A DNA stretch of 37,252 nt from a virus. The translations under genes and the position numbers were made by a program. The stretch covers positions 1 to 37,252 of the IMG/VR virus record IMGVR_UViG_3300033997_000239. One strand, given 5' to 3'. A model generated the notes under the pieces. That model made no database searches. It was not told where the DNA came from and saw only the letters and a program-made list of their open reading frames with translations. Shown here one piece after another: positions 3,639 through 31,307 of the stretch (the stretch's first letter is position 1; each line of letters opens with the position of its first letter).

Positions 3639-3872
3639 TTAAGCCAGATCGTCGAACAGATTTCCGACCGGGGGCATGGTCGCATTGATGCTGCTCACGA
3701 CTGCCTGCATCTGCTCGATAGAGCCAACAGCCACGACGATGTGGCCGCTCCGTTCCTCGCCAGGAACTTCGGTCTTCCAGATGTTTGCAGGATTGAAGAA
3801 AGCCACACCGGTTTCTTTGCTGATCCAAGCGACATGCTTGTGGGCCTGCATTGGGGCTTGTTGCTTTTCCAT
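3639..3872 (-). CDS. Unknown 77-aa protein cotranscribed with acrVA2 (candidate Acr)
   Basis: No family recognised. The product (MEKQQAPMQAHKH..., then HIVVAVGSIEQMQAVV and a C-terminal acidic NLFDDLA) looks globular with one predicted helix near the end and no membrane segment. AGGAGC lies 8 nt before the ATG, a good ribosome site. It is the first gene behind the operator-bearing promoter at 3948-3976 and sits 7 nt upstream of acrVA2. By guilt by association it is a candidate new anti-CRISPR or AcrVA2 partner; that is inference only. Confidence 0.75.
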   Translation of the reverse strand: MEKQQAPMQAHKHVAWISKETGVAFFNPANIWKTEVPGEERSGHIVVAVGSIEQMQAVVSSINATMPPVGNLFDDLA

Positions 3873-3947
3873 GAGCTGCTCCTAGAGAGTGTTTCCCGGC
3901 TACTCACCGCCGGAGGGTGTTGTCAGCGTTGTGCTGCCATGGGTATA

Positions 3948-3976
3948 AATGTAGTACGGATTCCGTACTCAGTCAA
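3948..3976 (-). promoter_or_regulatory. Promoter of the acrVA2 operon
   Basis: On the minus strand TTGACT (3971-3976) and TACATT (3948-3953) are separated by exactly 17 nt, a good sigma-70 layout. The spacer is almost filled by the palindromic operator, so a bound repressor would block RNA polymerase. The promoter lies just beyond the stop codon of the HTH gene and drives the 77-aa gene and acrVA2. Confidence 0.75.
3953..3969. promoter_or_regulatory. Operator copy 1, AGTACGGATTCCGTACT
   Basis: Two perfect 8-bp arms, AGTACGGA and TCCGTACT, flank one central base. The identical 17-mer recurs at 4878-4894, in the same place between the -35 and -10 of the neighbouring operon. The small HTH protein encoded at 3980-4168 is the obvious candidate ligand. 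Confidence 0.85.
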
Positions 3977-3979
3977 CAA

Positions 3980-4168
3980 TTATTTCTCACCGAGCGGCTG
4001 CAGCCCGGCGTCAATGGCAGCACAGGCCAACGCGAGCCAGCGCGGCAGCGCCCCCTCTCGCCTGAGGTACTCGGCGAAAGTGGTGCGGCCCATCCCGAGC
4101 GCCTCGGCCGCAGTGTTGTAGGTGTAGCCGTGGCGGACCTGCCAGGCTCGAAGGTCAGTAGCGTTCAT
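3980..4168 (-). CDS. Small HTH regulator, Aca-like (anti-CRISPR associated)
   Basis: The 62-residue protein has a helix-turn-helix over residues 16-37 (YNTAAEALGMGRTTFAEYLRR), followed by a short helix typical of small Cro-like or Aca dimers. It is the last gene of a three-gene operon (start overlaps the upstream stop as ATGA) and lies directly upstream of the acrVA2 promoter. Identical palindromic operators sit in its own operon promoter and in the acrVA2 promoter, so it probably represses both, as Aca proteins do for acr genes. I cannot place it in a numbered Aca family. It could instead be a general phage regulator. Confidence 0.82.
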   Translation of the reverse strand: MNATDLRAWQVRHGYTYNTAAEALGMGRTTFAEYLRREGALPRWLALACAAIDAGLQPLGEK

Positions 4169-4521
4169 CGTGGTTTTGCTCTTGGGGCTGACATGAATAC
4201 GCCGCGACGCTTCCAGTCGCCCGCATTGTGTGTTGTTGGGAGCCCTTGCTGCACGACCCAGTCATGGAAAGATTCGGCTATTTCAGCAACACGATTGCGT
4301 TCGGAAGCCCTGATGTAATCGCCAGACTTGAGCTTCTCTGCAACGACCAGACAGAAGTCTTGTTCATGTGCCGGAGGGACTCTCACAGTGACAACCTGCT
4401 GAATGGGGTGTTCCAGCCGCGTTTGCGGTTGAGAAAGGCGCATCTCAAGTTCTGCCGCGACATCGCGCATGAGCTTGAGTAAGCCGGGCGTGGAGATTTC
4501 GGGGAGTTTGATGATCTGCAT
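4165..4521 (-). CDS. Unknown 118-aa protein upstream of the Aca-like gene
   Basis: No family recognised. The N-terminal part (MQIIKLPEISTPGLLKLMRDVAAELEMRLS) predicts a helix that may mediate oligomerisation; the C-terminal half contains KSGDYIRASERNRVAEIAESFHDWVVQQG and a basic end. ATG 4521 lies one base after the stop of the upstream gene, which suggests translational coupling. Alternative upstream starts at 4545 and 4554, the latter behind AAGGAAG, would overlap the neighbour. Its stop overlaps the start of the HTH gene. Lying in an Aca-type operon, it is a candidate anti-defence gene. Confidence 0.72.
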   Translation of the reverse strand: MQIIKLPEISTPGLLKLMRDVAAELEMRLSQPQTRLEHPIQQVVTVRVPPAHEQDFCLVVAEKLKSGDYIRASERNRVAEIAESFHDWVVQQGLPTTHNAGDWKRRGVFMSAPRAKPR

Positions 4522-4522
4522 G

Positions 4523-4825
4523 TCAGTCGTACTTGTAGACGTCATCTTCATCATCTTCCTTGCGCGCAGCGATTGCGGCAGCCGTGCGTTGCTGGTAAAT
4601 CTCGCGGTCGATGTCGATCTGCCCATCAGCGTTCAGGATGACGATGTCGTGATTCTCGTCCAGGACATTGGCCCACCCGTCATCGCCGGCGCAGAACTCT
4701 TTCAGCTCGGCCACAGGGTAGTAGCCCCGAGCCGGTTCGCGGCTGTAGTCATCGAAGTCTACGGAGTAGACGGCACGGCCCGAACCAGTGACTTTGGAGG
4801 TCTTGAAAGCCGCAACGTAAATCAT
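4523..4825 (-). CDS. Unknown 100-aa acidic protein, first gene of the Aca-like operon
   Basis: No family recognised. The protein begins MIYVAAFKTSKV, has a beta-rich middle (AVYSVDFDDYS, GYYPVAELKEFC, HDIVILNADGQIDID) and a very acidic tail (KEDDEDDVYKYD), giving a strongly negative charge like many DNA-mimic or anti-defence proteins. AAGGGGTG upstream of the ATG is a good ribosome site. It is the first gene behind the second operator-bearing promoter (4873-4901). A role against host defence is possible but unproven. Confidence 0.78.
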   Translation of the reverse strand: MIYVAAFKTSKVTGSGRAVYSVDFDDYSREPARGYYPVAELKEFCAGDDGWANVLDENHDIVILNADGQIDIDREIYQQRTAAAIAARKEDDEDDVYKYD

Positions 4826-4872
4826 GCTGCACCCCTTTTGGTTGTGGCGCTCGACGTGTCGCCCTGGGGCAT

Positions 4873-4901
4873 AGTGTAGTACGGATTCCGTACTACAACA
4901 A
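4873..4901 (-). promoter_or_regulatory. Promoter of the Aca-like operon
   Basis: On the minus strand TTGTTG (4896-4901) and TACACT (4873-4878) are 17 nt apart, with the operator filling the spacer exactly as in the acrVA2 promoter. It drives the 100-aa, 118-aa and HTH genes. It lies only 8 nt beyond the stop of the Rz gene, so late transcription could also read through. Confidence 0.7.
4877..4895. promoter_or_regulatory. Operator copy 2, TAGTACGGATTCCGTACTA
   Basis: Same palindrome as at 3953-3969, here extended to 9-bp arms around one central base. Two identical 17-bp cores about 925 bp apart, each centred in a promoter spacer, argue for one repressor controlling both operons. Confidence 0.85.
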
Positions 4902-5440: not shown

Positions 5441-5896
5441 CTACACCTCCTGTATGCCCACCAACGTGCTTTTGCCGCTGACGGTGATCACGCGGTTGAC
5501 GGGTTTGTCCGGCGTGCGTGTGGACAGGTGCACCCAGTGCTTGCCGCCCACGCTCTCATAGATGATTTGCCCGATGCCCAACGCGTTGACGTGGGGCGCC
5601 AAGGCCTTGGCCACGGCGTATGGCGCGCCGAATTTGGGCGCCACGATGTCGGCGGCCGCGCCGATGGCGTGGTCGCTGCTGGTGACGCCGCCCACGGCAG
5701 CATTGACAGCGCGCGAGCGGTAGCCACTGGTCACGACGATGGGCACGCCCAGGTGCGCGCGCACGCGCTCCAGCATCGCGGCCGTAAGTGCCAGGCGCTG
5801 CAGGGCCTCGGGCGTTGGAGTGTTGTCCAGGCCCTGGCGCTGCGCGGTAGTGCTGGCGGTCATTTCCGCCAGCGTGAAATGGGGGGTCAGTTGCAT
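5441..5896 (-). CDS. Peptidase M15-family endolysin
   Basis: A 151-residue zinc peptidase of the M15 (D-Ala-D-Ala carboxypeptidase/YcbK-like) family, cleaving peptidoglycan peptides. Visible features: an N-terminal FTLAEM segment, the S-D-H-x-x-G-x-A-x-D zinc/catalytic motif (SDHAIGAAADI, mid protein), VTSGYRS before it, and the second metal site HWVH near residue 127. ATG 5896 follows GAGGGA at about 9 nt. There is no signal peptide, so release depends on a holin. It lies between the two membrane-protein genes and Rz/Rz1. Confidence 0.9.
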   Translation of the reverse strand: MQLTPHFTLAEMTASTTAQRQGLDNTPTPEALQRLALTAAMLERVRAHLGVPIVVTSGYRSRAVNAAVGGVTSSDHAIGAAADIVAPKFGAPYAVAKALAPHVNALGIGQIIYESVGGKHWVHLSTRTPDKPVNRVITVSGKSTLVGIQEV

Positions 5897-5901
5897 GATG
5901 T

Positions 5902-6183
5902 CTATCCCTCTTTGAATCGGGTACGAACGATGAGCACGACAAAGCCCGCGAACATGCACAGTTCGCGGGCCGTGGGTGCTGGGAAATCGAAGATGGGCGC
6001 GACGAGCGCGCCGGCGCCGGCGGCCGCGAGCAGGCACCAGGCCAGGGCCTTGAGCCATGCAAGCAGGCGCTGATTGCCGGTGAGCCCCGGCAGGCACGGC
6101 CGGGTGCGCTCCAGCTTGTTGAGGGCTTCGGCCAGGACGACCAGGCCGAAGATCCAGAGCAGGAAAAAGCCAAGGTGTCGCAT
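5902..6183 (-). CDS. Small membrane protein of the lysis cassette (holin or antiholin candidate)
   Basis: A 93-residue protein with predicted membrane helices at residues 3-20 (LGFFLLWIFGLVVLAEAL), about 42-64 (LAWLKALAWCLLAAAGAGALVAP) and 75-87 (LCMFAGFVVLIVR), with a basic tail. It lies directly upstream of the endolysin and downstream of another membrane protein. Size, helices and position fit a class I holin or its antagonist; which of the two pore candidates is the holin cannot be told from the sequence. Confidence 0.7.
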   Translation of the reverse strand: MRHLGFFLLWIFGLVVLAEALNKLERTRPCLPGLTGNQRLLAWLKALAWCLLAAAGAGALVAPIFDFPAPTARELCMFAGFVVLIVRTRFKEG

Positions 6184-6184
6184 G

Positions 6185-6577
6185 TCAGCTCTCCCCGGCC
6201 TGCGGCCAATACTTGCGCATGAGGGCGAGCAGCACGCGCTGTGCGCCGGCGCCGACCAGGAAGGCCATGGACAGCATCAGCGAGGCGGGCACGTTGGCGA
6301 TGAGCAGAGCCAGTGGCGTGAGGTAGCCGGCAGTGATCGAGGAGGCCCAGGCCACGGCCAGGCGCCGCACGGAAGTGCGCAGCAGCTCGCGCCAGGTGTC
6401 CGCAGTGCCCGGCACGGTGTTGAGCAAGATGATGCTCACCAGGGCGCCAAAGAAGCCGGCCAGCAGCAGATCGACATGCAAGCCCAAAGGCACACCGAAC
6501 GCGGTGAGTGCAGACGTCGAGACTGCGGCGCCGGCGAACGTGGCCACGCCGGCGGCGGTGGTTGTGGGTTCGGGCAT
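6185..6577 (-). CDS. Putative phage holin
   Basis: A 130-residue protein with hydrophobic segments at about 37-54 (VDLLLAGFFGALVSIILL) and 82-110 (ITAGYLTPLALLIANVPASLMLSMAFLVG) and a basic C-terminus. It is the first gene of the lysis cassette. ATG 6577 follows AAGGA at about 5 nt; the preceding TTG codon is too close to the ribosome site. A terminator just upstream (6596-6618) separates it from the tail genes. Confidence 0.72.
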   Translation of the reverse strand: MPEPTTTAAGVATFAGAAVSTSALTAFGVPLGLHVDLLLAGFFGALVSIILLNTVPGTADTWRELLRTSVRRLAVAWASSITAGYLTPLALLIANVPASLMLSMAFLVGAGAQRVLLALMRKYWPQAGES

Positions 6578-6593
6578 CAAGATCCTTCGGACA

Positions 6594-6620
6594 AGAAAAA
6601 ACCGCCCGAAGGCGGTTTGT
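6594..6620 (-). terminator. Rho-independent terminator after the tail genes
   Basis: On the minus strand an 8-bp stem, AAACCGCC with GGCGGTTT around a four-base loop (6599-6618), runs into a six-base T tract (6596-6601). It lies between the last tail gene and the lysis cassette, so full lysis expression probably relies on antitermination or read-through. Confidence 0.8.
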
Positions 6621-6636
6621 TGTGGGGTGTCATCTG

Positions 6637-7071
6637 TCAGGGCAACTCATGCAGCTGGATCGGCACATCAAGGATCGCAGCCGGATCAATTGCGTGCCCT
6701 GCAGCCTGCAGTATCGCCAGCCCTGCCGGCAAATCCGGGTTGTCCAAGTCGATGTATTTGCGCACGCTCGCGTCTTGGATCACCGCTTTGCACTGCGCAG
6801 TCTCATCGGCCAGGATCTGCCATTTACCAGGGCCGAACCTGTCAAAAAATGCTCCCACGCTGATGTGACGCACGGGGGTAGGCTGCGGCCCAGGTTCGGG
6901 CACAGCGGGCGCGGCGAATGCCTGGCCATCCCATGACCAGCCAATGCCGACCCCTTCAGGCGCCGGCTCTACGCGTTCCCACTGCGCGCGGACCGCGTCC
7001 GCAAAATCTGCGTCAGCAACGATGACTTGCTCAACACAGCCGCTTTTGATGAGTGCGTAGTTTTTGATCAT
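6637..7071 (-). CDS. Putative tail fibre assembly/accessory protein
   Basis: A 144-residue protein beginning MIKNYALIKSGCVEQVIVADA and containing GIGWSWDGQAFA, a pattern common in small proteins encoded after tail fibre genes that carry a conserved 'viNvi.....p....gW.yd...F' layout. The C-terminal half (FFDRFGPGKWQILADET) resembles the tail-fibre-assembly/DUF-type helical domain. ATG 7071 overlaps the upstream stop (ATGA). Probably a chaperone or minor tip protein; the specific role is inferred from position. Confidence 0.65.
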   Translation of the reverse strand: MIKNYALIKSGCVEQVIVADADFADAVRAQWERVEPAPEGVGIGWSWDGQAFAAPAVPEPGPQPTPVRHISVGAFFDRFGPGKWQILADETAQCKAVIQDASVRKYIDLDNPDLPAGLAILQAAGHAIDPAAILDVPIQLHELP

Positions 7072-7841
7072 TCGTACCACCAGATCCTTACAAAGCCAGA
7101 GCCACCAGCACCGCCGACAGCGTTGAAAGCGCCACCACCGCCGCCGCCACCACGATTTGCCGCACCAGCGCTACCAGGCGCGCCAGGGTTGCCTTCCACG
7201 CCGCCACTACCGCCGCCAGACATACCCAGTCCGGGACCGTTGGTGGCTGAATCCCCACCTCCTCCTCCCCCCCCGCCATAGCCGTTGATGCCCAAACCAC
7301 CAACGCCTCCACTGCCAGAGCCCCCGGCGCCCCCACCACCGCCCCAGATGCCCTCACCGCCACGTGCCGAGCTGGTTCCTCCATTGACACTATTGTTGCC
7401 GGGGCCACCGGCTCCACCACCACCGCCTCCCGTATTTGCCCCGCTGCCACCGCCGCCTGTCCCCCCGTTGCCACCCCGCTGGTATCCAGACAAACCGCCA
7501 GAGCCATACCCGCCACCGGGCACAGACGCAGATCCAACCGCCGTGGCTCCACCCGCAGTGCCGTTGCCAACCCCCGATGCAGTCCCGCCAGCACCACCCG
7601 CACCGATAGTGACCGCAACAGGCCCGGTAAACGTCATCGGCAATGTCAGAACGGCACCTCCACCGCCGCCGCCGCCCCGCGAGCAACCGCCGCCGCCACC
7701 ACCACCGACCAGCAAGACCCAGCCCTGCCCGCCACTCGCCAAAAGTGCTGCAGGAGGGGTAAACGTCCCAGACGCCAAGAACTCCTGGTAGCGCAGTTTC
7801 CCCCCGCCGCCACCGCCAAAGTAATCCGAATAAAAGCTCAT
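7068..7841 (-). CDS. Glycine-rich tail tip/adhesin-like protein
   Basis: A 257-residue protein built from Gly runs (GGGGGGG several times) between short loops, ending in a hydrophobic GSGFVRIWWYE. The N-terminus (YFGGGGGGKLRYQEFLASGTFTPP) and final strand G-F-V-R-I-W match the phage glycine-rich tail domain seen in many tailed phages. Such sequences can form packed polyglycine II helices, as in the S16 gp38 receptor-binding adhesin. It overlaps both neighbours by 4 nt. It likely decorates the fibre and may contact the host surface. Confidence 0.75.
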   Translation of the reverse strand: MSFYSDYFGGGGGGKLRYQEFLASGTFTPPAALLASGGQGWVLLVGGGGGGGCSRGGGGGGGAVLTLPMTFTGPVAVTIGAGGAGGTASGVGNGTAGGATAVGSASVPGGGYGSGGLSGYQRGGNGGTGGGGSGANTGGGGGGAGGPGNNSVNGGTSSARGGEGIWGGGGGAGGSGSGGVGGLGINGYGGGGGGGGDSATNGPGLGMSGGGSGGVEGNPGAPGSAGAANRGGGGGGGAFNAVGGAGGSGFVRIWWYE

Positions 7842-30617: not shown

Positions 30618-31307
30618 ATGTCCCTGACCTACCCACAACTTGCCGAACGAATACGCCTTGCCATGGAGATCGCCAAGATGCCCAGCCAAAGCGAACTTGC
30701 GAGAGCCGTGGGTATCAAGCCGCAAGCAGTGCAGTACCTGCTCGACCCACGCAACAACGCCACTGGCAGCAAGCACTTGGTGAAAATTGCCGAGGCGCTG
30801 GGAGTGAACGCTGTGTGGCTCGCCACAGGCCTGGGAGAACCTACTGACCTACAAACGCAGTCAAACGTTGAGCCCGGCCCGGACGTAAATCGCGGCATCC
30901 TGTACCCGTTGATCACATGGGTGCAAGCCGGCGTCTGGAACGGCAACTGCGAGGCCTTCACCCCCTACCAGGCAGAGCAGTGGTACATGAGCCCACACAA
31001 TCTCGGGCCAAGGGGGTACGTTTTGCGGGTACGCGGCGAGTCCATGACAAATCCCCAGGGACGCTATTCGTTCCCTGAAGGAATGCTTCTTTTCGTTAAC
31101 CCCGACAAAGACCCCACACCTGGACAGTTTGTGATTGCCCGCCGCGATGCAGACAACGAGGCAACCTTCAAGCGGTACACCTTGGTTGATGGGAAGCCCT
31201 ACCTTGAAGCTCTGAATCCAGACTGGCCGCACAAGTACATAGAGATGCGTCCCGGCGACACGTTCGGCGGCATTGTTGTAGATGCATCGTTCGGCAAGCT
31301 GCCCTGA
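30618..31307 (+). CDS. CI/LexA-type prophage repressor with S24 peptidase domain
   Basis: A 229-residue repressor. The N-terminal HTH (SQSELARAVGIKPQAVQYLL, residues 23-42) and VNAVWLATGLGEP mark a CI-type DNA-binding domain. The C-terminal S24 domain has an A104-G105 cleavage candidate in WVQAGVW, catalytic Ser142 in RVRGESM and Lys185 in ATFKRY. It should undergo RecA-stimulated self-cleavage on SOS. No ribosome site is clear. Operator copies lie on both sides. Confidence 0.93.
   Translation: MSLTYPQLAERIRLAMEIAKMPSQSELARAVGIKPQAVQYLLDPRNNATGSKHLVKIAEALGVNAVWLATGLGEPTDLQTQSNVEPGPDVNRGILYPLITWVQAGVWNGNCEAFTPYQAEQWYMSPHNLGPRGYVLRVRGESMTNPQGRYSFPEGMLLFVNPDKDPTPGQFVIARRDADNEATFKRYTLVDGKPYLEALNPDWPHKYIEMRPGDTFGGIVVDASFGKLP

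Follow-up and report, generated by a model that had tools for sequence, protein, structure and literature searches.

The window, a 37,252-nt stretch of viral DNA from an IMG/VR record, holds phage structural genes and, at its left end, a recombinase (read from the open reading frames); among named phages, Acidovorax phage Aval and Variovorax phage VarioGold come closest to it, and the locus described here lies in a prophage. Downstream of a first promoter, P1 (4873–4901, minus strand), minus-strand genes for a 100-aa protein (4523–4825), a 118-aa protein (4165–4521) and a 62-aa HTH protein, P0001 (3980–4168), follow one another from 4825 to 3980, with a 1-nt junction between the first two and a 4-nt overlap between the second and the HTH start. 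Downstream of a second promoter, P2 (3948–3976, minus strand), positions 3872 to 2588 encode, on the same strand, a 77-aa protein (3639–3872) and then P0005 (2588–3631), a 347-aa protein that sequence and predicted fold place in the AcrVA2/FinQ family. The 100-aa and 118-aa proteins are unassigned to any family; no relatives of the former were found in viral contigs or plasmids, nor of the latter in viral contigs.

Both promoters contain the same palindrome. Even allowing up to three mismatches, AGTACGGATTCCGTACT occurs exactly twice in the window, at 3953–3969 and 4878–4894, while dinucleotide shuffles predict 0.03 matches by chance. The palindrome has an 8-1-8 architecture, AGTACGGA(A/T)TCCGTACT, and the central base is its sole departure from perfect symmetry. 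The copy at 4878–4894 (operator O1) fills the spacer of P1, which consists of a −35 box TTGTTG, a 17-nt spacer and a −10 box TACACT; the identical copy at 3953–3969 (operator O2), which the HTH stop codon precedes by 11 bp, fills that of P2 (TTGACT, 17-nt spacer, TACATT). P1 is assigned from its sequence and from the same arrangement in relatives, P2 from its sequence and a promoter scan; the −35 box of P1 is poor (3/6), and P1 falls below the scan threshold that P2 alone passes. A preliminary sequence-only reading of this DNA had described twin identical palindromes, each filling the 17-nt spacer of a promoter, and this description is confirmed. The same reading had spoken of two separate operons. 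That view is partly supported: no terminator-like site was seen in the 11 bp between the HTH stop codon and the second operator, so the layout may be better read as two tandem operons or as a single transcription unit that contains an internal promoter.

P0001 is a small protein with an HTH domain. It scores 25.3 bits against Pfam HTH_31, under the cut-off of 27, and its AlphaFold model (pLDDT 86.9) predicts a small Cro-like fold nearest to NE0471, with Aca1 and Aca2 also among the matches; the recognition helix spans residues 28–36 (RTTFAEYLR). Aca1–Aca10 are repressors that recognise inverted repeats located inside core promoters, and acr–aca operons resemble the present locus in that a small HTH gene closes an operon of small genes, the inverted repeat lies inside the core promoter, and cargo is swapped between loci (PMC9410906). 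Both operators predicted here are inverted repeats inside the core promoter of an operon, and the AcrVA2-family gene sits in the operon adjacent to that of the HTH gene, under the same operator sequence. In contrast to acr–aca operons (PMC9410906), our locus has a common operator in two promoters, the second of which lies beyond the HTH gene; repression at our locus is a prediction, and P0001 is not closely similar in sequence to Aca1 or Aca2: a two-sequence comparison with Aca1 gave only remote similarity (33% over 55 aa, E=0.002) and a direct comparison with Aca2 gave no meaningful match.

Two other Aca proteins invite comparison. Aca10 of Pseudomonas citronellolis, at 65 aa, binds a 19–21 bp palindrome located, as here, between −35 and −10 and with a 1-bp centre between its half-sites, although its operator, ATACGCTCATTGAGCGTAT, is longer than and different from ours (PMC9410881); an indirect comparison, through the PDB profile matches of P0001 up to E=10, brought up no Aca10 chain. 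Aca8 of the archaeal virus SIRV2 has been proposed to act on many promoters and would be a case of one Aca for several separate promoters that share a regulatory sequence, but it is a 55-aa wHTH protein acting at archaeal promoters, on many single genes rather than two operons (PMC11065993). P0001, compared with Aca1 and Aca2 directly and with Aca10 only indirectly, may represent a new Aca family. Since AcaFinder counts 12 published Aca families and predicts 36 more (PMC9765179), it may already belong to a cluster that has no name yet.

Relatives of the locus retain the operator and exchange the genes around it. The HTH proteins of loci L003 and L004 are 92% and 87% identical to P0001, and both loci have the same operator in the same spacer position, apart from one central change in the first copy of L004; here 53-aa and 76-aa genes replace the 100-aa and 118-aa ones. 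In L004 a second operator follows the HTH gene and precedes a 96% identical copy of our 77-aa gene. Delftia sp. PS-11 (L042) has the operator twice without any mismatch, and the second copy, placed immediately behind the HTH gene, leads to 84-aa and 75-aa genes, not acrVA2. L011 has the same operator and yet another cargo gene on a contig that ends before any HTH. Two operators with one HTH gene are thus found in three further loci, L004 and L042 with the present operator and L117 with another; the twin layout is recurrent and the cargo not fixed. None of the cargo genes of the scanned relatives matched a known Pfam family. In L007, L008 and L009 the operator matches fall within unrelated genes and were dismissed as chance occurrences.

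We also considered, and rejected, a fixed partnership between acrVA2 and this HTH gene, given that Delftia-family AcrVA2 loci lack this HTH nearby and that the second operon of Delftia sp. PS-11 carries other genes. The sequence-only reading had suggested searching for AcrVA2 homologues flanked by this HTH family and operator. Of 401 Delftia-family genomes, ten carry AcrVA2, and in loci of ~3–4 kb none of these ten has this HTH, so the link with acrVA2 is an occasional one. Distant HTH relatives stand directly behind acrVA2 in L013, L017, L024 and L078. AcrVA2 is only one swappable cargo of the HTH/operator module.

Across more distant relatives the operator changes together with the recognition helix. 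The operators are AGTTCGGATTCCGAACT in L043 (HTH 62% identical), AGTCTCAGATTGAGACT in L005 (73%), AGTGTAGAAACTACACT in L048 (59%), AGTTTCAAAATGAGACT in both L052 and L053, and ACTCTCAATATGAGAGT in L081, and all of these lie in or overlap promoter spacers. The helix GRTTF goes with AGTACGGA, GRTTY with AGTTCGGA, SRATY with AGTCTCA (AGTTTCA/AGTCTCA in L052) and SRSGF with AGTGTAG; in L081 residue R28 is replaced by S and operator base G2 by C. In a Mantel test on 13 HTH/operator pairs, operator distance correlated with recognition-helix distance (r=0.79, p=1e-4) and not with the distance of the rest of the HTH protein (r=0.09), and the partial correlation for the helix given the rest of the protein was r=0.80. 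The 13 pairs are related sequences and two were found through their operator; leaving out those two gave r=0.79, and a dereplicated set of eight gave r=0.70 (p=5e-4), where the p-values are indicative because the sequences are related and few.

The pairing was also used predictively on L085, a locus from a newly fetched genome. Its helix, SRATYARYL, predicted AGTCTCAnnnTGAGACT, and AGTCTCAATATGAGACT was found in one place, between TTGCAT and TACATT. A reverse scan of viral contigs with the L085-type operator pattern returned 72 stretches, mostly unrelated, of which two contain a close HTH of this family, L117 and L134; both have the helix SRATYAR, and L117 has two L085-type operators with one HTH gene.

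These data bear on whether the palindromes might instead be operators of some other regulator, such as a phage CI repressor or a host factor, with the HTH gene as a passenger. Phages commonly encode HTH proteins, and binding by P0001 is a prediction, which leaves some room for such a regulator; against it, operator changes track the HTH recognition helix, and no third copy of the palindrome exists in the window. CI/Cro was examined as a candidate binder and discarded: the region near 30.5 kb, with a CI-like protein gene at 30618–31307, lacks the palindrome and has different repeats of its own, of the ACAAAGAATTTTG type, making CI/Cro unlikely to bind. We regard a foreign regulator as most improbable. 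The proposal of the sequence-only reading that one HTH protein serves both palindromes, with an Acr/Aca-like logic, is instead supported by the helix/operator covariation and by the relatives. It is very probable that P0001 recognises O1 and O2 and is a repressor of P1 and P2.

Starting from the observed identity and position of the operators, the gene order, the AcrVA2-family fold and the helix/operator covariation, we consider it highly likely that P0001 acts as an Aca-like repressor, a dimer of which would bind each 17-bp palindrome through the recognition helix and switch off both promoters at once. The bound dimer would cover the spacer of either promoter and shut out RNA polymerase. On phage entry both operons (the two small genes with the HTH gene, and the 77-aa gene with the AcrVA2-like gene) would undergo a burst of transcription, and rising levels of the HTH protein would then switch them off jointly.

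Some small phage HTH proteins activate or tune transcription, or act on leader RNA. P0001 could likewise be an activator or a tuner, or act mainly on the leaders, which have GC-rich elements in common immediately ahead of the ribosome-binding site; at our locus one such element, CACCCTCCGGCGGTGAGTAGCCGGG (3895–3919, minus strand), lies between P2 and the 77-aa gene, and similar elements are found in the leaders of related operons. However, an operator placed between −35 and −10 favours repression, and the leaders fold no better than shuffles, so that we find a role of this kind very unlikely and retain repression of both promoters.

What the second operon delivers is less settled than how it is controlled. 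That P0005 belongs with AcrVA2, as its initial label had it, holds by homology: it matches the solved AcrVA2 structure 7ci1 in sequence (E=7e-19) and phrog_6160 (E=3e-47), and its predicted structure (pLDDT 86.7) retrieves 7ci2 (E=5.5e-19) and 7ci1 in Foldseek ahead of all other matches by a wide margin. Moraxella AcrVA2 (PDB 7ci1/7ci2) is thus of the same family by sequence and fold; the identity is about 25%, and both an anti-CRISPR role of P0005 here and Cas12a as its target are suggested by homology only. The family also includes FinQ, a fertility inhibitor of plasmids that has been known since the 1980s. A plasmid search with P0005 returned 538 records, mostly from Enterobacteriaceae, and among the matches listed most of those on E. 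coli and Shigella plasmids are annotated as FinQ. FinQ of an E. coli IncI1 plasmid (L165:1552–2331) is 29% identical to P0005 over 255 aa (E=2e-32) and is homologous to AcrVA2 as well (E=5.6e-12). It differs from P0005 in being shorter (259 aa as annotated) and plasmid-borne and in being described as acting on F tra transcription. FinQ, which lowers expression of a rival's genes, has been reported to terminate F tra transcription (PMC8744291), and AcrVA2 to lower cas12a mRNA via the nascent chain (PMC13131331). In the literature searched, we found no instance of FinQ being named together with anti-CRISPR; the homology connects an anti-CRISPR with an inhibitor of plasmid fertility and suggests that the two lower the mRNA of a rival in a common way.

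The HTH protein and its operators may therefore work as we describe while the cargo is not anti-CRISPR in this host, the AcrVA2-like protein silencing some other target, as FinQ does with F transfer genes, and the locus being a module for accessory functions or competition in general. Searching 301 Delftia-family genomes turned up no Cas12a, and the same search found it in one of 398 genomes of the phylum and so is able to detect it; together with the presence of FinQ in the AcrVA2 family, this suggests that the target may not be Cas12a. The cargo genes of the scanned relatives, belonging to no known Pfam family, also fit a general module. On the other hand, Cas12a may occur in unsampled hosts, and the order of the genes and the place of the operator match acr–aca loci. 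We regard such a module as a serious contender, only a little short of probable.

Returning to the Aca-like repressor, we offer more tentatively a synthesis in which P0001 belongs to a new Aca-like family whose short recognition helix predicts its operator and which governs promoter modules that come in pairs and whose anti-defence cargo can be exchanged, one such cargo belonging to a joint AcrVA2/FinQ family of mRNA silencers with a non-Cas12a target here. If the pairing is real, the HTH helix would reveal the operator sequence, which could then serve as bait for unknown anti-defence genes in the phages and prophages of Comamonadaceae and their relatives, and the twin-promoter layout would allow an anti-defence gene to be expressed with and without its repressor.

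Finally, several minor observations were made. The GC-rich leader elements fall into three sequence classes; they immediately precede the ribosome-binding site of the first gene or of an internal one, and also occur in L004, L012, L042, L005, L053, L058, L085, L134, L052, L081 and L117. A leader RNA pseudoknot was considered and rejected, its folding energy being equal to that of shuffles and only one compensatory pair (in L085) supporting it, and an Rfam search of the leaders gave no match. In L112, L121 and L131 a different small HTH protein, whose helix contains SRAN, is encoded about 210 bp away from an AGTCTCA operator embedded in a promoter. In L044 (Achromobacter) a Cas1e gene (5658–6458) overlaps an AcrVA2-like gene (6455–7405), and upstream of them lies an HTH relative with an operator that is not intact. 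Genes resembling vWA domains lie near acrVA2 or this HTH family in L017 (upstream of 4001), L078 (932–1537) and L117 (2872–3567).
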